In this document: positions 2,831 through 25,800 of the stretch, one piece after another
How the letters are laid out: every line of letters begins with the position of its first letter
Numbering within the stretch: position 1 is the first letter of the stretch
DNA from: an uncultured Saccharospirillaceae bacterium
GTDB taxonomy: Bacteria > Bacteroidota > Bacteroidia > Flavobacteriales_D > CAJJDF01
Assembly: GCA_950054195.1 (NCBI GenBank)
Contig: CATLPG010000018.1
Location: 1-53,526, forward strand
DNA length: 53,526 nt
Direction of reading: 5' to 3'
Notes under the pieces: generated by a model
Database searches by the model: none
The model's input: the letters and a program-made list of their open reading frames with translations, nothing else
What the model was told of the DNA's origin: nothing
Program-made: the position numbers and the translations under genes

Positions 2831-3979
2831 TTAATCACCATCATTGTCTTGGTAAGTAATTAAAATAGATAAAGCGCTAGTTAAGTCTAACTTTAGTAAA
2901 ACAACTAACTTTTGCATTTCATCATAGAGCTCTTGAACTTTCGATTGGTTATTTAATACCTCTACATCAATACTTGCTTGTAAAGCATCTATTTTTGTAA
3001 TTACAGATGAAAATTGAGTGTTAATTTTATTAGAAAGTAACTCACTACCGTGTTTAGCCTCTAGATGATCTAAATAGTCATCAAAGCCAATGCCAGATTC
3101 AGAACCATTTCCATTAATGTAGTTTTGTAAACCAGTTACCGATGTTTTTAAAAGCACTAACGAGTGTTGACTATAGATTGCTTCAGCTTTCCCAGGGATT
3201 GGTATACCTAGGCTTCTAACTCCTAATGGAATACCAACTTTACCATCTCTGATGTACTTTTCATAATCCATGTTTAAGGCATTAACCATTAGTCCAATCG
3301 AACTTCCAACATCAGTACCATTTGCAGCTAAAAAGGTCGTTTTATAACTGCTATTCCACTGGTTAGCGACTAGCTCTACTTGCTGGTTAGCATTAGCAAC
3401 AACATCCTTAAGGTATTGCAATCTATTAGCCCCAATAGCATTGTCGTTAAAATAATCAACTAAGAGATTAACGTTATTATGAAATAATAAATAGTCAACT
3501 GCTGGAAATCCAATAGCAACCAAATTGCTAGCAGCCCCTAAATTGTATGAGCCACTTGTAATATTGGATTTAATAACTAAGGTGTCGCAAGGATAGGTAT
3601 TGATGCTACCTTTTAAAGCGATACTTTCAGCCGGTCCAAAATCAAACGAACTGCAAAGTTGCCATGTTTGGTAAGCACTTTTAAAACTAATTTGTGCTTC
3701 AATAAGGTCATTTGCACTTACAGGTTGACTTAAAGCTTGAATTTGTTGATTAAAATTGGAGACTATGAATTTTAAAGAATCATAACGAGGAATAATAACA
3801 TTGTTGGCGATATTCTCAAGCAAGATGCTTTTGTTGAATTCAGCCTTAGTAATATCATCATTTTTTTTATCCTTTTTACATGACGAAAGCAATAATAAGT
3901 TTAACGTTACCAAACAAAAAAGACTACTGTTCAAAAGTTTAAAATTGCTAACTCTTGTTTTATGAATTAGGTTCATCAT
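2831..3979 (-). CDS. imelysin-like predicted lipoprotein (COG3489 type)
   Basis: Secreted lipoprotein of 382 residues. A hydrophobic stretch at about 17-33 ends in the lipobox LSSC (Cys34). The rest is helical and matches imelysin-like proteins, for example the SAYQTWQLCSSFDFGPAES and GFPAVDYLLF segments. Imelysins carry a GxHxxE signature; here the equivalent is G157-F-P159-A-V-D162, so the His and Glu are replaced. It sits second in the iron-type operon, between a DUF4856 lipoprotein and the HTTM gene. Imelysin-family proteins are linked to iron uptake and are probably iron or ligand binders rather than peptidases. Start choice: the first of two tandem ATGs was used; the second differs by one residue. 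Confidence 0.85.
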   Translation of the reverse strand: MMNLIHKTRVSNFKLLNSSLFCLVTLNLLLLSSCKKDKKNDDITKAEFNKSILLENIANNVIIPRYDSLKFIVSNFNQQIQALSQPVSANDLIEAQISFKSAYQTWQLCSSFDFGPAESIALKGSINTYPCDTLVIKSNITSGSYNLGAASNLVAIGFPAVDYLLFHNNVNLLVDYFNDNAIGANRLQYLKDVVANANQQVELVANQWNSSYKTTFLAANGTDVGSSIGLMVNALNMDYEKYIRDGKVGIPLGVRSLGIPIPGKAEAIYSQHSLVLLKTSVTGLQNYINGNGSESGIGFDDYLDHLEAKHGSELLSNKINTQFSSVITKIDALQASIDVEVLNNQSKVQELYDEMQKLVVLLKLDLTSALSILITYQDNDGD

Positions 3980-6533: not shown

Positions 6534-9392
6534 TTGAAAAAAGCTTTTTTATTTTTATTTTTTTTGCTGCTACTTGCTAGCCTCGTAGGTCAAACTCCAA
6601 ATTATGTTAAAGTAGGAGAAAAAGAGTTTGAGGGGAAAGATATTTATTCCTTATATCAAAAGAAAGGCTTATTATATGTAGCGACCAATAAAGGGGTGTA
6701 TAAGCAACATCTAAATACTTTTAATAAATTACCTTCTAATTCTAATATCCAATCTTTTTTTGATATAAAAGAAGATAACTACGGTAGAATATTTTGCAAA
6801 TCCTTAGAAGGGGAGATTTATGAAATTAAAAACGATTCACTAGAACTTTTTTATAAGCTTAAAGACACTTACTTTACGAATTTATTTTATTTCTTTTTTG
6901 ATAAAAAAAACAGATTAATTATTTCAGGAGATAGTATCATTAGAGTTGGGCCAAAGGGAGAAGAAAATTTATTAAATAATTTAGTCACCGATTATACTAA
7001 ACACACAAGTATTTATTATTCACATCGAACGATTAATGACCAACTATTTTTTTCTAGTGCAGTAGATGATCGGTTTGCTTTTTTATATGAAGATGGTCAA
7101 TTGAAAAAAATTGCCTTTGAATTTACCGAAGGTTTTAGAGGAGACATGTTTTTGTATCAACAAAATGGTTCATCTTATATATTTAATCAATCAGGAGATT
7201 ATTATTCACCAACGGGTAGTCATCTTGAAACTAGAATGGAGAAGAACAGTAGTTTTTTTACACTAAAAATGGGAGAGTTACTCGTAACTAGTGAGGTTGG
7301 AGGAGTTAAAATTTATACGTTATCAAAAGACACCTTAAGGCTTTCACATCAATTTTTGCAGAATGAATTTATTTCTTTTGTCTATCAAGACAGAAGCGGG
7401 AGTTTATATTTAGGAACTTTTGGAGATGGAATTTATATTATTCCTTATTACAAGCAGCAAAATATAACATTCGAAGAAACGATTACTGGTCTAACCAAAA
7501 ACAGAGCCCAAAATCCAGTAATATCTACAAACACAAAACAAATTTTTGAATTTTCAGATAATCAACCGAAGGTTATAGCTGTAAATGAAAAAAAAGTAGA
7601 GAATTTAGGTTTCAGTAATATTCCATATGGGAATAGCTTTCAGCAAAGACAAAATTTAATTTATTCGAGTGACTCTTTAAATTTTGGAGCTCTTAAGCAT
7701 ACTTATTTAGCTAATGATAGTTTAATGCTAATAGCTACTAACATAGCTGTTTTAGCGTTACAACCTAAATTTGAACCTCCACTAAAAAACTTTAAACCCT
7801 TTACACAAAACGATAAATACAAACTAAGTAAATATAAAATACCAGATCGTTATTATAAAGTCGCTTATGATAAAAAGAATGAAACAATTTTAGCGGTTAC
7901 TCAAAAAGGTGTTTTAAACTTATTATCGAAAAAACTTTATTTTGTAGAAGGAAGACCGGTTAAAGCTTTCGATATAGAATATTATAATAACCAGTTAATT
8001 TTTTATTTAAGCGAAAAAATAATTTTTGTTAAAGATAAAAAGGTACTTGATAGTTTAACTAGTAAAGACGGTCTAATTGATGGAGATGTTATAAAGTTAC
8101 TAGTAAAAGATGATTTTCTTCATATCCTTACCAATAATGGGTTTCAATCATATGATTTAGCAACTAATAAGTTTTACAACCTAACTAAATCTAAAGGTAA
8201 AGGAGATGAAACAATTTCTTATTTTGAGTTGATTAGCGATGTTTTTTGGTTTTCAACAAAACACGATTTGTATAATGTACCTTTTGATTTGCTAATAAAT
8301 AAAGAAGAGGTAGAATTTAACGTTGAGCGTTTACTTGTTAATGATATATCTGTTGATAATACAAACAATATATACGCTAACAATCAATCTAATTTTCGAT
8401 TTTTTGTTTCCTGTGATGATCTTTTAAAAAGGCAAGATGCTTACTTTAACTACCAACTTAAAGGATTTGATAAGAATGTAAGGAAAATATCAGCACTCAA
8501 TAATGAAATAGCTTATGAGTACTTACCACCAGGAAGGTACCAATTTAACTTATGGTTAACTTACAATAACACATCTTCAAAGTCCTATACCTATAACTTC
8601 AACATATTGAAACCCTTTTACCAACGGTGGTGGTTTTACACGATCATTATTTTGTTACTTGTATTATTATTTTATAGTGTTGCTAAATACAGAATAAACC
8701 AAATAAATAAGAAGAATAAAGAAAGACTAGAAAAGGAGATTTTATCAAAAAACTTATTGGACAGTGAATTAAAAGCTCTGCGTTCACAAATGAACCCCCA
8801 TTTTTTGTTCAACTCACTTAATTCGATACAAAATTTGGTTTTGAAGCAAGATGTTGACTTATCTTATGACTATATCACCATGTTTTCTGAGCTTGTTCGA
8901 AGTACTCTTAATTATTCTGAGCAAGAATTTATTCCTATTGAAAAGGAACTTAGATTTTTGAAAGTGTACCTAGATTTGGAAAAACTCAGATTTAAGGACG
9001 ATTTTGAGTATGAAATCAATTGTTCTGACTCAAAAAGTATTCAAATCCCTTCAATACTCATTCAACCGTTTATAGAAAATTCTCTAAAACATGGTTTGCT
9101 ACATAAAAAAGGTAAGAAAAGAATCGATATCACATTTCAGCTTACGGATGAACTCATTTGTACGATTAGAGATAATGGGATCGGTAGGGAGGCCTCAACA
9201 AAATTTAACCAATCTAATAATGAGGAACACCAATCATTTTCAATGAGTGCAATTGATAAAAGATTAACTATTTTAAGTGAGCAGTATAACGATGTTTTCA
9301 ACTACAACGTTCATGATCTATACGAGGGTGATAACCCCATAGGTACAGAAATCGTTTTAAACCTTCCTTTTAAGAAAAATAATGTCCATTAA
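6534..9392 (+). CDS. LytS-type sensor histidine kinase with extracytoplasmic propeller
   Basis: Membrane sensor kinase of 952 residues. It has an N-terminal signal peptide (MKKAFLFLFFLLLLASLVGQ), a long extracytoplasmic region with two-component-regulator propeller-type repeats to about residue 600, and a Y_Y_Y-like beta domain at about 625-690 (YEYLPPGRYQFNLWL). One membrane helix follows at about 698-717, then a coiled linker and a His_kinase (LytS/YehU) domain with phospho-acceptor His756 in RSQMNPHFLFNSLNSIQ. The ATP-binding N box lies near 846-853 (IENSLKHG) and a DNGIG G box follows. The start is TTG at 6534, chosen because it gives a complete signal peptide. The LytTR regulator 65 bases downstream is the evident partner. 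The stimulus is unknown, perhaps a glycan or cell-surface signal. Confidence 0.92.
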   Translation: MKKAFLFLFFLLLLASLVGQTPNYVKVGEKEFEGKDIYSLYQKKGLLYVATNKGVYKQHLNTFNKLPSNSNIQSFFDIKEDNYGRIFCKSLEGEIYEIKNDSLELFYKLKDTYFTNLFYFFFDKKNRLIISGDSIIRVGPKGEENLLNNLVTDYTKHTSIYYSHRTINDQLFFSSAVDDRFAFLYEDGQLKKIAFEFTEGFRGDMFLYQQNGSSYIFNQSGDYYSPTGSHLETRMEKNSSFFTLKMGELLVTSEVGGVKIYTLSKDTLRLSHQFLQNEFISFVYQDRSGSLYLGTFGDGIYIIPYYKQQNITFEETITGLTKNRAQNPVISTNTKQIFEFSDNQPKVIAVNEKKVENLGFSNIPYGNSFQQRQNLIYSSDSLNFGALKHTYLANDSLMLIATNIAVLALQPKFEPPLKNFKPFTQNDKYKLSKYKIPDRYYKVAYDKKNETILAVTQKGVLNLLSKKLYFVEGRPVKAFDIEYYNNQLIFYLSEKIIFVKDKKVLDSLTSKDGLIDGDVIKLLVKDDFLHILTNNGFQSYDLATNKFYNLTKSKGKGDETISYFELISDVFWFSTKHDLYNVPFDLLINKEEVEFNVERLLVNDISVDNTNNIYANNQSNFRFFVSCDDLLKRQDAYFNYQLKGFDKNVRKISALNNEIAYEYLPPGRYQFNLWLTYNNTSSKSYTYNFNILKPFYQRWWFYTIIILLLVLLFYSVAKYRINQINKKNKERLEKEILSKNLLDSELKALRSQMNPHFLFNSLNSIQNLVLKQDVDLSYDYITMFSELVRSTLNYSEQEFIPIEKELRFLKVYLDLEKLRFKDDFEYEINCSDSKSIQIPSILIQPFIENSLKHGLLHKKGKKRIDITFQLTDELICTIRDNGIGREASTKFNQSNNEEHQSFSMSAIDKRLTILSEQYNDVFNYNVHDLYEGDNPIGTEIVLNLPFKKNNVH

Positions 9393-9417
9393 TTAATTCA
9401 GAGATTCCATTAGTTAA
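9385..9417 (+). promoter_or_regulatory. tandem LytTR-type sites before the response-regulator gene
   Basis: Direct repeats TCCATTAATTAA (9385-9396) and TCCATTAGTTAA (9406-9417) differ at one base. They start exactly 21 bases apart, two helical turns, which is the spacing of LytTR-family binding sites. The first copy covers the kinase stop codon. TCCATTAGT fits the published LytTR pattern [TA][AC][CA]GTTN[AG][TG] except for A in place of G. This suggests that the regulator controls its own gene. Confidence 0.6.
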
Positions 9418-9457
9418 CTTTATGTAGTAACAAGTAAGTAAGATTTTACATTTACAT

Positions 9458-10216
9458 ATGTCTATAAAAACAGTAATCGTTGATGATGAACTTGATGCCG
9501 TTGAGGTGATGAGTATGCTTTTATCCAAATCAACAAAAGAAACTGAGATTGTTGGAGTAGCATCTAGCGTTAGGGAAGCAGTTGAAGTTATTAATCAAAC
9601 ACAACCTGATGTCGTCTTTTTAGATGTTGAAATGCCAGAACTTCCTGGTTATGAGTTGATCCAATTCTTCGAAGAAGTAGAGTTTGATATTGTATTTGTA
9701 ACAGCTTACGACCAGTATGCAATAAAAGCTTTCGAAATCAATGCGATAGATTATCTTTTAAAGCCAATTAACAGAGGCAAGCTGGATCAAACACTAGAAA
9801 AAGTAACAGATACAATAAAATTAAAGCAGCAGTACCACAAGTATAAAAAGCTGATTGAAAGTCTTTCATCTAACCAAGAGGTGAAAATTACGCTAAATGA
9901 AGTAGGTAAAAAACGGGTAGTAAATCTGGATTCAATAATAGCAGTAGAAGCAGAAGGGACTTATTCAAAAGTATATACACTAGAAAATGAAAAACCTATT
10001 CTTGTTAGTAAAAATATAGGAGCATTTGAAAGCTATTTTCCAAGCAATAACTTGTTTTTTCGTTCGCACAAATCTTGGTATATCAACAAAAACCATATTC
10101 TTTCTTATGCTAAAACAAAAGGGGTTATTGAACTTTCCAATCACGTCACAGCTAAATTATCCAAATACAAAAAAGGGGAATTAGAAGCTTTTACCAATAA
10201 AAAAATAAAGAAATAA
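9458..10216 (+). CDS. LytTR-family response regulator
   Basis: Cytoplasmic transcription factor of 252 residues. The N-terminal receiver domain (about 1-120) has the acidic pocket VDDE at 8-11 and phospho-acceptor Asp56 in FLDVEMPELPG, the switch Thr in FVTAYDQYA, and the conserved Lys in YLLKPI. The C-terminal LytTR DNA-binding domain (about 145-245) includes the IIAVEAEGTYSKVY and FRSHKSWYINKNHI segments. The linked LytS-type kinase upstream is its expected phosphodonor. LytTR regulators bind pairs of direct repeats about 21 bases apart. Such pairs occur before this gene and before the next two genes, so the four genes probably form one signalling module. Confidence 0.95.
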   Translation: MSIKTVIVDDELDAVEVMSMLLSKSTKETEIVGVASSVREAVEVINQTQPDVVFLDVEMPELPGYELIQFFEEVEFDIVFVTAYDQYAIKAFEINAIDYLLKPINRGKLDQTLEKVTDTIKLKQQYHKYKKLIESLSSNQEVKITLNEVGKKRVVNLDSIIAVEAEGTYSKVYTLENEKPILVSKNIGAFESYFPSNNLFFRSHKSWYINKNHILSYAKTKGVIELSNHVTAKLSKYKKGELEAFTNKKIKK

Positions 10217-10310
10217 GAAAGTCAAAAGAATAATTACTTTTAAAGGTTTCCATTTAATACTAGAATAACCACGTAATGGCGATCAAAACTCAGTATTTAC
10301 TAATTACAAT

Positions 10311-10364
10311 ATCAATAGTTAAATTTTTTTGTCCATTAGTTTATCGTTTTAGCTCATTCATTCA
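10311..10364 (+). promoter_or_regulatory. LytTR-type repeat array before the 442-residue secreted protein
   Basis: The central copy TCCATTAGTTTA (10332-10343) has weaker copies exactly 21 bases to either side: ATCAATAGTTAA at 10311-10322 (8 of 12 matches) and CTCATTCATTCA at 10353-10364 (7 of 12). The array ends 57 bases before the start codon. The phase shared with the repeats at 9385 and 11810 is the main evidence. Confidence 0.5.
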
Positions 10365-10420
10365 TATAATTTGTCTGATGCTTTACGCTAGACTTTCTTT
10401 AGAGAAATTAAAATACACTT

Positions 10421-11749
10421 ATGAATATTAAAAGTATCTTACTCGTATCCGTAACCATGTTTTTTGCTGTACAGCCAGCAAATGCCCAAAAGTGGAAAGA
10501 AAAGCTTAAGGCTGCAAAGGAAAAAATGAATGCTTCTCTGGATGGGGGAGCAAGCAATAATAAAGATTATAGCTCAGATTATGAAGGTGTTGTGTTTGAG
10601 GATATGATGACTTATGTCGATGCATGGGACGGTAAAAAAAATGTTAAACATAGTTTTTGGAGCTCAAAAGACAATAAATACTACAGAAAAGATCCTGTGA
10701 ACATAATTGTTAAGAAAGATGGAGACTCTTATCAACAATTCGCAATAGATAATAGAAAATTTGGACCAATAAAAAATGACGACTCAGATAAAGTGATCGG
10801 CTTTAAAGGAATAACATCTGGCAGGAAATTGTATTTAAATGAGAATACAATAGTTACGTATGCTACGAATGATGAAGGAAAAATTTTCATAGCTTCTGTA
10901 TTGGGAGAAAAACAGCCAATGAGTAAACTAGTTGCTGAGATTGAAGCGTATCAAAAGTATACTTCAACAATTATTAATAAAGATGTAGCTTCTGCAAATG
11001 CAGAAAGAAAGAGAATAGCGGAGGAAAAGGCAGCCGATAGAAAGGCAAAGTATGGCTTACACGACAAGGATATCAAGTCAGCGAAGGTTATTATTAAGCT
11101 ACCTAAAGAAAACGGCAACTTTATGTCTGTAAATTTTGATATTGAAACAACACTTACGGATGGAACGGTCATAACAACAGCTAACCAAGGATTTTATGAG
11201 GATTATGAAATAAATAAAAATTATAAGACTGATTTCAATGGAAATTTGGAGTCTGGATTTATAAAAGGAGATGCTGTAGAAGTATCAATAGTATCTAAGC
11301 ACAACAATAATATTAAAGCAAATGCAAGTGAAGCATTAAGTTATAACAAAGGACCCGTGTTTTATTTGTACGGAAGAGGATGGAGCGGTTCTGCAGGCGA
11401 AGATGGAGAGGATGTGGAAATAGAAATAAAGCAAGAAAAGCATGGTGTAACTGGAAAGCCAGTGTTAAGGGTTAAATTAACTAGTACAGCTGATCGTGCT
11501 AAATTAAAAGAGTTTTCTTTAGAACCAACAGCAAGCATGGTAGTGAAAACTTATGGAGGTAAAGGAGGCAAAGCAGATGGTAGACCCTATGATGGAGGTG
11601 ATGGAGGTGATATTATCGTTTATAAAGATCCAAGTGTACAGTCATTTAGGATAAAATATGACGTTAAAGGAGGGGCACCAGGTGGTATTTCTGCAAATTA
11701 TGGTAGAGACGGTGAATATCGTGAAGTAAAACAAAAGGTATCTTTTTAG
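10421..11749 (+). CDS. secreted protein of unknown function with glycine-rich C-terminus
   Basis: 442 residues, not recognised. A signal peptide is clear (MNIKSILLVSVTMFFAVQPA then NAQ). The mature start is a lysine-rich amphipathic helix. The middle is mixed, with a charged helix near 195-215 (ERKRIAEEKAADRKAKYG). The end is rich in glycine: YGRGWSGSAGEDGEDVEIEI, then YGGKGGKADGRPYDGGDGGD near 378-397, and a further GGAPGGISANYGRDG. No lipobox and no T9SS tail are visible. A LytTR-type repeat array lies upstream and a strong terminator downstream, so it forms a single-gene unit. It is probably a target of the adjacent LytS/LytTR pair, exported to the periplasm or outer membrane. Confidence 0.85.
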   Translation: MNIKSILLVSVTMFFAVQPANAQKWKEKLKAAKEKMNASLDGGASNNKDYSSDYEGVVFEDMMTYVDAWDGKKNVKHSFWSSKDNKYYRKDPVNIIVKKDGDSYQQFAIDNRKFGPIKNDDSDKVIGFKGITSGRKLYLNENTIVTYATNDEGKIFIASVLGEKQPMSKLVAEIEAYQKYTSTIINKDVASANAERKRIAEEKAADRKAKYGLHDKDIKSAKVIIKLPKENGNFMSVNFDIETTLTDGTVITTANQGFYEDYEINKNYKTDFNGNLESGFIKGDAVEVSIVSKHNNNIKANASEALSYNKGPVFYLYGRGWSGSAGEDGEDVEIEIKQEKHGVTGKPVLRVKLTSTADRAKLKEFSLEPTASMVVKTYGGKGGKADGRPYDGGDGGDIIVYKDPSVQSFRIKYDVKGGAPGGISANYGRDGEYREVKQKVSF

Positions 11750-11776
11750 TACGATCAATATTTTCGTGCTTTATAA

Positions 11777-11806
11777 GCCACTAATTAACCAATTAGTGGC
11801 TTTTTT
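11777..11806 (+). terminator. intrinsic terminator after the 442-residue gene
   Basis: Perfect 10-base stem GCCACTAATT / AATTAGTGGC with loop AACC, followed by six T, 27 bases after the stop codon. Confidence 0.92.
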
Positions 11807-11809
11807 ATG

Positions 11810-11842
11810 TCCATTAGTTCCCTTAATTGTACCATTGGTCTA
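11810..11842 (+). promoter_or_regulatory. tandem LytTR-type sites before the LamG/beta-helix gene
   Basis: TCCATTAGTTCC at 11810-11821 and ACCATTGGTCTA at 11831-11842 start exactly 21 bases apart and share 8 of 12 bases, including CATT. A -7-like TACTTTTA follows at 11872-11879. The site begins 4 bases after the preceding terminator and 95 bases before the start codon. Confidence 0.55.
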
Positions 11843-11904
11843 TTAGATTAATAAACACACATTTTCTATCCTACTTTTAGTTCGAATTAATAAAATTTTA
11901 ATAA

Positions 11905-14091
11905 ATGAAAAAAGTATTACTTTCTGCGGCATTGCTTTGCGGATTATCCTCTATTTCAAATGCTCAAGTCTCTAATGGCTTACTAGCTCACTATCGTTTT
12001 GACGGAAATGTAAATGACTCATATAACAGTAATGATGGATCTTTGGTTGGTACAACTGTAAGCTATGTTACCGACAGGCATGGGAACATAAATAGCTGTA
12101 TCTCATTTAATTCAAACGCATATGTGAACTTACCTACTGGATTAAGTGATAGTCCAGAAAGATCAATCTCTCTTTGGTTTATTACTTCAGAGCCAGGAGG
12201 TTTGATAGGTCATAACGATGGACCAGGAACTTATGCGCCCATCTTATATATTGGAGAAGATGAAAGGTTGCATGGAAAATATTGGGATGGTAGCCAAGGA
12301 AGTGTAAGCCAAACGAACTATGTTTTAACAGACTCCTTATGGCATCATGTAGTGATAACTGGAGATAACAGTGGTCAAAAATTATATTTAGATAATCAAT
12401 TAATAGGTACTACTACAGTGCCTATATCTACTGATGCTTTTCCAAATACTAATATTGGCATAGTGGATGCAACGAACTGGCCATCGCCTCCTTCAAATAA
12501 TAATATTAAAGGGGCTATTGATGATGTTAGATTATATGATACTGTGATAGACCCAACAACGATTGATTTAATTCAAAATACTCCCGCTTGGACACCTCCT
12601 GCTTATCCATATGCTTCTAACATTGTATACGTAAATCCAAACGCTACAGGAAATAATAACGGAGCCTCATGGGCAGACGCCTTTACAGATCCACAAGATG
12701 CTTTCTTTAGCACGGTAGATGGTAACGAGGTTTGGATTGCTCAAGGAGAGTATAAAAGAAATACAACCGATAGATTTGTAACCTTTGGATGGTTAACTGA
12801 TTCCATAAAAGTATATGGTGGTTTTTCTGGTAATGGAACAGAAACATCAATTAATGAGAGGGATTGGGATTTATATCCAACAATTTTTAGTGGAGATATA
12901 GGTTTAGTAGGTGATACTAGTGATAACTCTTATACTGTTTTTTCAGGACCGTTTGGCTCTTCTTCTGATGTTATAAATTATTCTTATATCGATGGAATTA
13001 AAATAACAGGTGGTTCTGCAGATGGCGGTAATTATCCTAATTTTGAATCCGTAGGAGGAGGAATAGATGTTAATGATTATGTTACACACGTTGTATTAAA
13101 TAATATTGAGTTTTACGATAATTATGCTATCCAAGGAGGTGCTATGTCATTTGTTAATGAGGCAGGACCTAGTGATATGAGAATTGAACTAAACAATATC
13201 ATAGCTCACGATAACTCAGGTAGATCTTCGGTAGTTGGTCACTTTAGAGCATTTAGTGGAAGACAAATAGATTTAACTATTACAAACTCCCTTTTTCATA
13301 ATAATTATGCTTTGAATTCCCTAAATGGTCAAACTCAAGATTTTGGAACTGTGTTATTTGTTGGTGCTAACAGTACAAACTTTGATTTTAAGTTTATCAA
13401 TAATACAGTTGCTAACAACAGTTATGGTGATCAACATGACTCATGGGGAGTATTAAGATGTTACAATCTAAACTCAACAACATCAATGGTAGCTCAAAAT
13501 AATATTTTTTATGGTAATGGTAATGGAAATGGAGTAAATAGTATAATGGATATCACTGATATGGGGGCTAGTTTAACCAAGCGTCCTTTTGATAATGTAA
13601 CCCTAAGAAATAATATACTTGAAAATGGACATAATATTGATTCAGCAATAGATATAAATAACTCTACAAATGATCCGTTATTTAATGATCCGTCTAATGA
13701 TGATTTTAGCTTGTCAGCGGGTTCACCTGCTATAGATTCTGGCTCATTAGTTGGCGTACAGTCTTGGGTGCCGATAGTTGATATATTAGGGAACGATAGA
13801 GTGTCAGGAAATGCAGTTGATAGAGGAGCTTATGAATATGGTTCGCAAGTTTCAAGTATAGAAATTACAACCAAATCAGACATCGTTTTATATCCAAACC
13901 CAGCCGTTGAGGCATTTTCAATTAAAGCTGATCAACCAATCAACCGAGTGAATATTTATTCAACTACAGGTCAGTTAGTAATATCAGAAACGAAATCAAA
14001 CATATCAATTGAAAGCTTAAATACTGGCTTATATCACGTAGAGATAGTAACAGGTCAAAAAACAACAATCAAAAAGCTTGTAAAAAATTAA
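11905..14091 (+). CDS. secreted LamG + beta-helix protein with T9SS sorting tail
   Basis: Exported surface or extracellular protein of 728 residues. It has a signal peptide (MKKVLLSAALLCGLSSISNA) and a concanavalin/LamG-type sugar-binding fold at about 25-220 (HYRFDGNVNDSYNSNDG; RSISLWF; LWHHVVIT; AIDDVRLYD). From about 240 to 640 it resembles a right-handed beta-helix of the pectin-lyase type (YVNPNATGNNNGASWADAF, many N-rich turns, AGSPAIDSG, GNDRVSG, DRGAYEYG). The C-terminal T9SS type A sorting domain begins at about 655 (YPNPAVEAFSIKAD ... GLYHVEIVTGQ). The domains suggest binding to or degrading polysaccharide, but no catalytic residues could be identified. LytTR-type repeats upstream tie it to the adjacent two-component system. 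Confidence 0.92.
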   Translation: MKKVLLSAALLCGLSSISNAQVSNGLLAHYRFDGNVNDSYNSNDGSLVGTTVSYVTDRHGNINSCISFNSNAYVNLPTGLSDSPERSISLWFITSEPGGLIGHNDGPGTYAPILYIGEDERLHGKYWDGSQGSVSQTNYVLTDSLWHHVVITGDNSGQKLYLDNQLIGTTTVPISTDAFPNTNIGIVDATNWPSPPSNNNIKGAIDDVRLYDTVIDPTTIDLIQNTPAWTPPAYPYASNIVYVNPNATGNNNGASWADAFTDPQDAFFSTVDGNEVWIAQGEYKRNTTDRFVTFGWLTDSIKVYGGFSGNGTETSINERDWDLYPTIFSGDIGLVGDTSDNSYTVFSGPFGSSSDVINYSYIDGIKITGGSADGGNYPNFESVGGGIDVNDYVTHVVLNNIEFYDNYAIQGGAMSFVNEAGPSDMRIELNNIIAHDNSGRSSVVGHFRAFSGRQIDLTITNSLFHNNYALNSLNGQTQDFGTVLFVGANSTNFDFKFINNTVANNSYGDQHDSWGVLRCYNLNSTTSMVAQNNIFYGNGNGNGVNSIMDITDMGASLTKRPFDNVTLRNNILENGHNIDSAIDINNSTNDPLFNDPSNDDFSLSAGSPAIDSGSLVGVQSWVPIVDILGNDRVSGNAVDRGAYEYGSQVSSIEITTKSDIVLYPNPAVEAFSIKADQPINRVNIYSTTGQLVISETKSNISIESLNTGLYHVEIVTGQKTTIKKLVKN

Positions 14092-20146: not shown

Positions 20147-21481
20147 CTAAAGCTTCACAATTTTTTGCTGATGAATTTTTCCATCTGACAAAAATAGTGT
20201 TACAAAATAAGTTCCAGAGATCAACTCAGTTAATTGGATTGAATGCTCACTGCTTGATAAAACAACCTTGCCAGTAACATCCATAAGTTGTATGGTTTGA
20301 ACAGCTGTTGTTGATTTTATTGTTAATTCGTTGGAAGTTGGATTAGGATAAATGCTTATGTTAGTCTCGTTAAGATTATTCATACTAGTTGATTGGTTAC
20401 AACTTGTAGCGCACCAGTTTCTTGTATTTAATTCACATTTAATGGTTTCATAGGCTAGTTTATTTGTTCCATTTCCAGGATACGTTCTAATACCTAGCGT
20501 TCTTAAATACTCATAAAAAGCAGTGTCTGAGATGCCATAATAGGGAACAAGTGCGGCAACTTCAGCATGACTCCAATCATTTGTTTTAAAAATAGTCAAA
20601 TACTTAATGTTTGATTGATATGTGTCCCATGCGTCAAACACATTTTCGTAAAACTGCGCTTGCAAAGCTTCACTGCTATTACAAACATCACTAGAGGAAT
20701 ACCCACATTCAGCAAAGTAAATAGGTTGATTGGTATCGGGATAAGCAGTAACCAACTCTTGAAAATCTGTAAATACAGCTGAAGGTGGCTTCATGGTGAA
20801 ATTACTTTCCAAAGGGTAGTAAGTAGTTGATACGATATCAGTTTTATTATTTACGATTTTACAAAGGTTTGAAAGGTAAGGATCAACTAAACTGTGATGT
20901 GTTAATGTAACCCCTATGTTTAAATCTTCTCCATGTAAGGCAAAATACTTTTGTTTAGCATAGACGCGAATAGAATCAATAAAAATACTATAATCTACAT
21001 ATTGCAAACTATCAATTCCCCAGTAAACGTCAGTTTCATTTCCGATTGTTAATGCGGATAATTTTAAATTGGGAAGATGAGAAAAAACCGTATCTAGTGC
21101 TCTTTTAAAGTATGAAATCATCAGTGGATCCGAAAAATTAACGGTATCTAATCCATTGGGCAACGTTCTGGAAACAGTATTTATCGTTGCCATTTGAAGT
21201 TCAACTTCTAAATTATACGCAGGGTAATAAAAATCAATTAGATCTAGAAATCCAGTAATAAAGCTTTGGTTAAAATTGCCAGTGTCACTTTCTAGATCGT
21301 TCCATGTAAAAAACAAATGAACAGATTCCATGCAAGCATCAATGGCATAAAGTAAAGAAGAGTCATAGTTGCCATTTTCTGCCAAATCGACTTGGTAGGC
21401 TAATGTTCGATTCCCTTTAGACTGCTGACCGTAAACAGTTATCGAAAATAAAAAGGATAGAAGTAGAATATAATTTTTCAT
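20147..21481 (-). CDS. secreted TIM-barrel glycoside-hydrolase-like protein with T9SS tail
   Basis: 444 residues from ATG 21479-21481 (a second ATG 15 bases upstream is possible). It has a signal peptide (MKNYILLLSFLFSITVYG) and then a catalytic-looking domain of about 350 residues. Glu149 in LTIGNETD follows Asn as in clan GH-A acid/base residues. Glu258 in PIYFAECGYSS is placed like a GH-A nucleophile near the end of a strand. A long Asn/Ser linker precedes a T9SS type A sorting domain (YPNPTSNELTIKS ... SGTYFVTLFLSDG). Overall it resembles distant GH53- or GH5-like hydrolases, but the exact family and substrate are not certain. It ends 5 bases from the convergent fibre-like gene and lies 53 bases after tolC with no visible terminator, so it may be read from the efflux operon or its own promoter. 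Confidence 0.8.
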   Translation of the reverse strand: MKNYILLLSFLFSITVYGQQSKGNRTLAYQVDLAENGNYDSSLLYAIDACMESVHLFFTWNDLESDTGNFNQSFITGFLDLIDFYYPAYNLEVELQMATINTVSRTLPNGLDTVNFSDPLMISYFKRALDTVFSHLPNLKLSALTIGNETDVYWGIDSLQYVDYSIFIDSIRVYAKQKYFALHGEDLNIGVTLTHHSLVDPYLSNLCKIVNNKTDIVSTTYYPLESNFTMKPPSAVFTDFQELVTAYPDTNQPIYFAECGYSSSDVCNSSEALQAQFYENVFDAWDTYQSNIKYLTIFKTNDWSHAEVAALVPYYGISDTAFYEYLRTLGIRTYPGNGTNKLAYETIKCELNTRNWCATSCNQSTSMNNLNETNISIYPNPTSNELTIKSTTAVQTIQLMDVTGKVVLSSSEHSIQLTELISGTYFVTLFLSDGKIHQQKIVKL

Positions 21482-21534
21482 GGATATGATTTTCAACCAT
21501 TTTTACGAAAATTATTTTAGTTTGTTGCAGAAAA

Positions 21535-22855: not shown

Positions 22856-25800
22856 TTAATCATTAAATTCATTTAGTCGTCTAATGGTTCTTTGTGTTGG
22901 CTCTGATTCTGTAGCAGACATTCGTTTGCCTCGCCATAAGTAAATGAATATTCTTCTTAAATCATTAACAAAGCATATAAGAGGAGGGAAGAATACTAAA
23001 ATAAAGAATGTACCAAATAATACTCCATAAGCAATGGCAATAGCCATTGGTTTTAAAAAGGCTGCTTGAAAACTACCTTCAAGTATTAATGGGTATAATC
23101 CTGCAACAGTAGTGATGGATGTTAAAATAATCGGTCTAAATCGTGCTTTACCAGCATAAATGGCAGCGTCTTGTACTTCCCATCCTAATTTAATTTGTCG
23201 ATTATAGGTATCTAATAGCACTACAGCATCGTTAATTAAGATTCCAAGTAAAGCAATAAATCCCCAAGCACTTAACATACTCACTTGATTGTCTTCAATA
23301 CCATGTCCAAGCACACCACTTGCAAAACCAACAGGAACAACTAGTAATATCATTAAAGCCTGAGAAAAAGAGCCAAAGTTCAGGGATAATATTACCATAA
23401 TGATGATAATGGCTAAAATAAACATAACCATCATAGATTTACCCGATTTTTCTGCTCTTTCAGCTTGTCCTTTAAATTTGAAGGTTACTTCAGGATATTG
23501 AGCTGTATACTTTTGAACGATTTCGTTATTAATTTTACTTGTTAACTCGGTAGTAGAAGCTTTTGGATCTACTTGATCTGCATAAACGAAAATATTATTA
23601 ACTCCGTTGATATGTTTTATCGCTACGATTCCTCTTTCGATAGTTAAGTTAGCTAAAGTCGATAATGGATACTTGTTTCCTTGTAAATCTTGAATTTTTA
23701 AATTCTTTAACTGATCTAAACTTTCTCTGCTTTCCATGGGAAAACGAACCCAAACTTTTACTTCATCAACACCAACAATAAGTCGCTGTGCTTCTTGTCC
23801 ATAAAAAGCTTGTCTAATTTGATTGGATAAACTCAAATGAGTAAAGCCTAATAGTTTTGCTTGGTCTGTTAGCTCAAGATAAATTTCACGCTTACCAACA
23901 CCTTGATTGTCCCTAACTTCTTTTAGTTCGGGCATTTCTTTCATTTCTGCTTTTATTTTGTCGGTAACTTCTCTTAGTTTATCCGTATACTTTGACGTTA
24001 AAGACAATTGGATTGGAAAACCCCATCTATTTTCTCCAGAAACAATAAGTTTTTCAGGAATGGATTTTTTTTCTCCAAGCTTTTCACGAATGGCATTCGC
24101 TAGTTCATTACTAGAAATGGACTTACCTTCCATATCTAGCATAATATCGATTTTCCCTGCATGACCACCAGCTTCTCCTAAACTTTCAGTAAAACCAATA
24201 CCAACAAAACAATTTGTTATTAATGTGTCGCCAGTTTTATCAATAAATTCTTGATTAACTTCCCAAATGTCTTGCTCACAAGCTTTCAAAAAGGCTTCTG
24301 TTTTCATTTCACGTTCACCAGGTTTAAAGGCAACTTCTAAATTTAATTTATCAAAAGGTATGTTAGGGAAGAAGGTACTTTTGATATAGCCAGTAGCAAA
24401 TAAACCCATTATGATAATGATGAATATCAAAGGAATGTAAGTCCACCCCCAAAAACGCTTAACAATTTTGGTTAGTTGTTTACCGTACCAATCAGTAACT
24501 TTCGTAATACCTTTATTTATTTTATCTCTCGTTTTTTTGTACCATCCAACTTTGCTTTCACTAAGCATTGATTTATGTGCTAAGTGGGAGGGGAGAATTA
24601 AAAAAGCTTCAATTAGTGAGAACAATAAACAGGCGACTACCGCAAAAGCCATTTCCTCCATCATTTCCATTTCACCACCAACAAATAAAAGCACACCAAA
24701 AGCAACAACTGTTGTAAGTACTGATGTAAATACGGAAGGTAACACTTCCATTGTACCATCGAGTGCTGCTTGATAGGAGGTTTTTCCTCGTTCGAAATGG
24801 GCATAAATATTTTCGGCTATTACAATACCATCATCAACTAAAATTCCTATTACTAAGATCATCCCAAACAATGAAATCATATTGATTGTCATGCCATAAA
24901 GCATTCCAATAGCAATCATGCCTAACATAGAAAAAGGAATTCCAAAAGCAACCCATGCCGATAAACGTAAGCTCAAAAAGAATCCTAAGGTTACCAGTAC
25001 TAAAAACAATCCAACGATACCATTTTTACCTAGCAAAGCAATTCGCTCATTTAGCATATCGGTAAATTGAAAGGTGATTTCTAGTTGATGTCCTTTTGCT
25101 TTGTTTTTTCGATTAAATTCTGAAACGTAATTTTCGACTCCTTTTGAAATAGTAGCTAAATCTTCTTCGGGAAGCTTAGAAACATTAAATGTCATCATCC
25201 GCTTTCCTTTTGAAGTAATCTTAAAAGGTGTTTCGGAGAATTTCATGCTTACATCAGCAATTTGACCTAAAATGATTTTTTGTCCATCCGGAAGTGATCG
25301 AACAACTATTTGCTTGATTTTTTCTGCTTCGTTTTCCCGTGCGTTGGACCTAATAGTAAATTCTTCGGTTGGAGTTTTAATAGTACCTGCTGATAGATCT
25401 AAATTGTTTGCTTGTATGGCATTAGAAATTTCATTAATGCTGATGTTATACTTGTTTAATTCACTTTCCTTTACTTCTACAACAATTTCTAAATCTGGTA
25501 GTCCGTTTACAGTAACCTGTGATAATCCCTCAATATCCCTAAAATCATATTCTACATCATCTGCAAGTTTTTTTAGTTCGAATAAGTCATTAGGACCGCT
25601 TAAAGATACAACAGCAACCATGGAAGACATTCCTCTGGTTTTTTGTTTTGTAACAATTGGTTTTTCAGCTCCAGCAGGATAGGAGTTGATGGAGGATACA
25701 GCACTTTCAACTTCTTGTTTTAGTTCTTCTAAATCGGTTTCAGTATAAGCTGTAACTGTAATTGAAGAGGTGTTTTCTGATGAGGTAGACTCAATCTCTT

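Follow-up and report, generated by a model that had tools for sequence, protein, structure and literature searches.

The operators of LytTR regulators are defined as two direct repeats of 9-11 nucleotides (nt) with 11-13 nt between them (PMC4847170), and it is already known that these proteins can activate themselves and act on direct repeats that are offset by two helical turns and lie upstream of a promoter (PMC4847170, PMC6193735, PMC11347149). The YpdA/YpdB system of Escherichia coli combines a LytS-type kinase with a regulator composed of a receiver (REC) and a LytTR domain, and the yhjX promoter carries two direct repeats, GGCATTTCAT, that begin 21 base pairs (bp) apart as counted in the printed oligonucleotide (PMC4847170). 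HdrRM, BrsRM, and the Bacteroides operons that resemble the LytTR Regulatory System (LRS) likewise place a LytTR protein on direct repeats just upstream of a promoter, with positive autoregulation, and the predicted Bacteroides examples show 11-bp repeats 11 bp apart, followed by a -7 element, TATCTTTG (PMC6193735). Here, we describe a related locus in contig CATLPG010000018.1 of an uncultured bacterium (assembly GCA_950054195.1) assigned to Flavobacteriales_D; positions 1 to 53,526 of this contig, the whole stretch that was analyzed, are referred to as the window. On its plus strand, the locus encodes a sensor histidine kinase (6534..9392), a response regulator with a LytTR domain (9458..10216), a secreted-looking protein of 442 amino acids (aa) (10421..11749), and a LamG protein that carries a sorting domain for type IX secretion (11905..14091), and direct repeats precede each of the last three genes. 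These repeats are very probably the operators of the neighboring LytTR regulator, which would activate its own gene and the two genes for exported proteins.

Seven repeats on the plus strand form three groups. Before the regulator gene, half-site 1 (9385..9396), recognized by sequence, covers the kinase stop codon, and half-site 2 (9406..9417) is recognized both by sequence and by a motif of the family. Half-sites 1 and 2 before the LamG gene (11810..11821 and 11831..11842) are likewise evident from sequence. Three copies stand before the 442-aa protein gene: an extra upstream half-site identified by sequence (10311..10322), which may serve as a third site; half-site 1 (10332..10343), located 89 bp before the ATG, where the family median is 91; and half-site 2 (10353..10364; CTCATTCATTCA), a poor copy by sequence, yet one that stands as far from the promoter element as is usual in the family. 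The working pair before this gene is probably 10332/10353. An initial annotation of the window had listed all seven repeats, and each was found where it had been placed; the copies within a group lie exactly 21 bp apart from start to start, that is, a 9-nt repeat plus 12 nt, in agreement with the definition of a LytTR operator. Its description of TCCATTAGT as one base off the general LytTR pattern also holds.

Both strands of the window were scanned for pairs with at most three total mismatches to TCCATTAGTT at spacings of 12-33. Four pairs were detected at spacing 21 on the plus strand, all of them in the cluster, and every other spacing gave 0 or 1 per strand; the annotated absence of comparable pairs from the other intergenic regions is thereby confirmed. 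The three intergenic regions contain one, one, and two such pairs, and not a single pair arose in 2000 dinucleotide shuffles of each. An additional match at 11789 (CCAATTAGTG), again 21 bp upstream, was dropped, as it constitutes the right arm of the terminator hairpin at 11775-11802. In the genome to which the window belongs (3.27 Mb), the pattern YCCATTAGTT-N12-CCATTAGT has only two matches with at most one mismatch, namely 9385 and 11810; with at most three mismatches, 34 matches were obtained versus 9 for the reversed pattern. Thirty places outside the cluster were checked (29 matches of this pattern and one match of another 21-bp pattern), and all except the intergenic C34:861 lie within or overlap coding sequence. 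Since the off-cluster matches are nearly all coding, the regulon as seen with this pattern is local and, judged from the distribution of its sites, looks confined to the locus. The genome-wide search recommended in the initial annotation thus found the sites nearly unique to the cluster.

Comparison was extended to the loci of regulator homologs in the same order, comprising 59 regions before regulators and 49 before next genes. The window word TCCATTAGTT recovered little in distant relatives. Because half-sites differ between loci, the comparison relied on a spacing count free of any model and on a fitted motif. The model-free count, in which 10-mer self-matches of at least 8/10 were recorded at each spacing from 12 to 45, peaked at spacing 21 before regulators (14/59 regions); before next genes, it reached 14/49 at spacing 21 and 10/49 at spacing 20, with the remaining spacings mostly at 1-4 in both sets. 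The tandem motif, fitted without the window and with spacings of 19-23 allowed, reads n[TA][CA][CT][AG]TT[CG][AC]T[AG]AAn, roughly CYRTTNNTRAA, and the window sites fit it. Pairs scoring at least 16 occur in 26 regions at spacing 20, in 15 at spacing 21, and in 0-3 elsewhere. The 41 observed sites compare with a mean of 0.06 in shuffled regions and were contributed by 24 genomes, which represent 14 genera and 4 of the families in the order. Although coding sequence accounts for 89% of bases in the relative loci, only 4 of the 57 pairs scoring at least 17 fall within it. The median distance from site to start codon is 75 bp for regulators and 91 bp for next genes, and the corresponding distances in the window are 73, 89 (10332), and 95. 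The comparison of orthologous upstream regions, also suggested as a check, therefore turned out favorably: sites recur at the same places in relatives, and the module is of a widespread kind within the order. Under this motif, 9385/9406 is the best plus-strand pair of the window at 20 or 21 bp, and the second and third sites lie below the reach of the motif alone (half-site score sums of about 9 and 10). A minus-strand pair at 24115 scored 19.1 versus 17.8 for 9385 and was dropped because it is located inside an AcrB-like gene.

The half-sites are phased with a predicted promoter element. In 42 sites, the octamer TAnnTTTG was sought with at least five of its six fixed bases, the offset being counted from the start of the second half-site. 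This octamer, the -7 element of Bacteroidota promoters, is found at exactly +41 in 30 of the 42 sites, and none of the other offsets tested has it in more than 2 of 42; at +41 or +42 taken together (offset 40 was also tried), it is present in 41 of 42. TTG at the -33 position shows no enrichment in the 42 promoters. Because the promoters lack a -33 TTG, the bound regulator probably replaces the -33 element and activates transcription. The geometry suggests an activator sitting where RNA polymerase misses its -33 contact, and the promoters are likely regulator-dependent. In the window, predicted -7 elements matching at 5/6 fixed bases occur at +41 from half-site 2 before the regulator gene (TACATTTA; 9447..9454, plus strand), whose ATG is at +52, and before the LamG gene (TACTTTTA; 11872..11879, plus strand). 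A weak -7-like element (TTTCTTTA, 4/6; 10394..10401, plus strand) stands at +41 from 10353. In loci with repeats outside the fitted motif, -7-like elements are mostly found at 36-42 as well. A generic sigma-70 scan, which is not suited to this type of promoter, detected promoter-like sites at no higher frequency than in shuffles.

In Bacteroidota promoters, the transcription start generally follows the -7 element at a distance of a few bases. The regulator gene has an in-frame ATG or GTG at +49 to +57, at most 9 bp after the -7 element, in 20 of 24 loci, whereas the next gene has an in-frame start in this interval in 0 of 18. Based on these offsets, leaderless messenger RNAs (mRNAs) are predicted for the regulators and leadered mRNAs for the cargo genes, and the regulator mRNA of the window is predicted to be leaderless.

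The promoter geometry also bears on the possibility that the regulator's sites function as repressor operators, released by the active kinase. Such a role is known from the LytTR repressor CoxC, which has three direct repeats and an operator overlapping -35, but the majority of LytTR regulators are reported to activate from sites upstream of -35 (PMC11347149). The half-sites of this family lie upstream of the would-be -33 position, in promoters where TTG is unenriched, which fits a needed activator better, and repression is considered unlikely.

Still less probable is a regulator encoded elsewhere that binds the repeats, with the nearby LytTR gene as a bystander. The genome does encode nine other LytTR proteins, which could supply such a regulator, but the sites follow the neighborhood and clade of the local one. 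G140 and G035 (Crocinitomix algicola) are grouped with the window in the regulator tree, and their half-sites share its GTTAA or GTTTA ending. Within a locus, the half-sites preceding the regulator gene and those preceding its neighbor are more alike than half-sites of different loci (9.01 vs 8.09 matches; permutation p = 0.00025, 17 loci), and all intergenic matches in the same genome but one are in this cluster. When 21-bp repeats were sought at the nine other LytTR genes, one clear case was recognized, on contig C2, where a perfect direct repeat, TACCGTTAACTCAA, recurs at 21 bp about 115 bp before the start of the regulator gene at C2:47426; its sequence differs from the half-sites of the cluster. 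Chance repeats can be practically dismissed: the intergenic DNA is AT-rich, G+C is 34%, and TTAATTAA-like words are common, but the 2000 shuffles per region gave 0 pairs, and spacing, position, and promoter phasing are conserved in relatives.

Several observations weigh against activation of all three genes by the neighboring regulator. Only 26 of the 59 relative loci have a site at threshold, the others having other motifs or none, and a spacing of 20 bp is as common in the family as 21. The motif fit, with 19-23 allowed, and the promoter offset come from the same data, so there is some circularity in these counts; the model-free count, together with the empty counts found for 19, 22, and 23, serves as a guard. 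In the window, the pair before the 442-aa protein gene is poor at 10353, and its -7 element reaches only 4/6. The third site of G140 lacks a 5/6 -7 element at +41, the best being 4/6 at +42. G035, which has the closest ortholog of the 442-aa protein, carries a pair before that gene, and none was found before its regulator. G001, the sole other genome of the genus searched, lacks a relative of the 442-aa protein, and the module is patchy. The best regulator relative in G001 is 40% identical, while other families carry the module, a distribution that may reflect patchy spread by loss or transfer.

From the arrangement of sites, promoters, and genes, we infer a course of events in which the periplasmic beta-propeller of the kinase would read an outer signal and the kinase would phosphorylate the regulator. 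Two regulator molecules would then bind side by side on one DNA face, at half-sites two helical turns apart, the second of which starts 41-42 bp upstream of a putative Bacteroidota -7 element. From the promoter at the end of the kinase gene, the regulator would drive its own gene as an almost leaderless mRNA, establishing positive feedback, and it would further drive the genes for the 442-aa secreted protein and, past a terminator, for the LamG protein that is exported by type IX secretion. Control by the kinase/regulator pair of the regulator gene and two secreted proteins, as envisaged in the initial annotation, is supported by the sequence comparison.

The kinase (TTG start) has a signal peptide recognized by eye, a membrane anchor, and, according to Pfam, a Reg_prop beta-propeller (PF07494), a Y_Y_Y domain (PF07495), and a LytS-type His_kinase domain (PF06580, 5e-25), the last identifying a LytS-like partner in the gene adjoining the regulator. 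Nearly full-length relatives share 38% (G035) and 33% (G059) identity. The regulator comprises a receiver domain (PF00072, 3e-20) followed by a LytTR DNA-binding domain (PF04397, 2e-10), as in LytTR-type response regulators. Its best relatives are 56% (G140) and 53% (G035) identical, and most relatives have the same kinase/regulator gene order. The 442-aa protein gave zero Pfam or NCBIfam matches and is not assigned to a family; its signal peptide was recognized by eye only, domain searches found no type IX C-terminal sorting domain, and its AlphaFold model is poor (mean pLDDT 44, two sequences). Homologs are 63% (G035) and 48% (G140) identical, and in most other genomes they lie close to a match of the regulator search. 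An intrinsic terminator (11775..11802, plus strand; fold z -4.7) lies 3' of its gene, so the LamG gene should need its own promoter. The LamG/choice-of-anchor Q protein (PF13385, NF041518) carries a type IX C-terminal sorting domain (PF18962, 1e-11; TIGR04183, 1e-10), which bears out its annotation as a type IX-exported protein; the genome has 87 sorting-domain matches.

The exported cargo appears to be exchanged while the sites stay, as seen in one relative. In G140, a member of another family of the order, the regulator (56%), the 442-aa homolog (48%), and a third gene each stand behind 21-bp repeats, and the three exact genome-wide matches to a 21-bp pattern are all before these genes (the assembly is 57% complete). 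The third protein of G140 is a leucine-rich repeat (LRR) type IX protein that has mainly the sorting domain in common with the window LamG protein. In C. algicola, the 442-aa homolog follows the regulator, and no LamG gene comes after it. By a crude rule, 18 of 19 genes behind sites are secreted-looking versus 56 of 148 neighbors (Fisher p = 1.4e-6). The type IX sorting domain occurs in 12 of 22 proteins of the target set, which includes both window proteins; the 25 families that were listed from 40 neighbors do not include it, although such lists would miss some single matches. Intergenic pattern matches elsewhere in other genomes are mainly before signal-peptide genes.

Eight loci of other genomes (L196, L198, L200, L201, L202, L208, L238, and L241) have family-pattern matches about 80-95 bp before signal-peptide genes. 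Most of these matches are far from listed regulators, so regulons there may exceed one locus. At G251:C78 (L211), two secreted genes stand behind sites near the regulator, one of them, as judged by eye, resembling LamG at its start and a sorting domain at its end. Elsewhere in the window, a second type IX-sorted protein (20147-21496, minus strand) adjoins an RND efflux operon, and no 21-bp pair of the motif was seen before it. At 1509-2825 and 2831-3979 on the minus strand, a protein related to vitamin K-dependent gamma-carboxylase (HTTM plus lumenal domain) adjoins an imelysin-like protein and a DUF4856 protein.

A broader proposal, which we rate only somewhat better than even, is that the Reg_prop kinase/LytTR pairs found across Flavobacteriales form a family of dedicated exported-protein switches. 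Every pair would use a half-site of its own, and the activator would stand at a rigid distance from the -7 element, with no need for a -33 element; the regulator transcript would be leaderless and self-activating, and the cargo genes would be exchangeable. Two-component pairs and type IX-exported proteins are both numerous in Bacteroidota. A readable site at a fixed promoter distance would allow the exported proteins under a given sensor to be predicted from sequence, and flavobacteria amenable to genetics offer a direct test of this sensor-cargo link. A leaderless regulator mRNA, as predicted here, is an unexpected detail and easily checked. In the openly available papers that were searched, there was no report of a kinase/LytTR pair of this kind driving exported cargo, of a fixed distance to -7 without -33, or of leaderless regulator mRNAs.

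Compared with the described systems, the locus departs from each in several respects. Unlike this locus, YpdA/YpdB has one transporter target, another half-site, and a sigma-70 promoter, and lacks both a Reg_prop sensor and adjoining exported-protein cargo. The regulator does not qualify as an LRS, since it has a receiver domain and a kinase partner, whereas LRS are kinase-free and rely on a membrane inhibitor as the partner; their targets also differ, and the Bacteroides LRS-like regulators have transmembrane segments and a listed -33-like element. CoxC and RcoM resemble 10311/10332/10353 in having three direct repeats at intervals of two helical turns (PMC11347149), but they are one-component gas sensors without secreted cargo, and CoxC represses. 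Taken together, the repeats appear to form a genuine set of operators whose kind is already known, and, against the papers searched, the local regulon, its promoter geometry, and the exchangeable cargo seem new.

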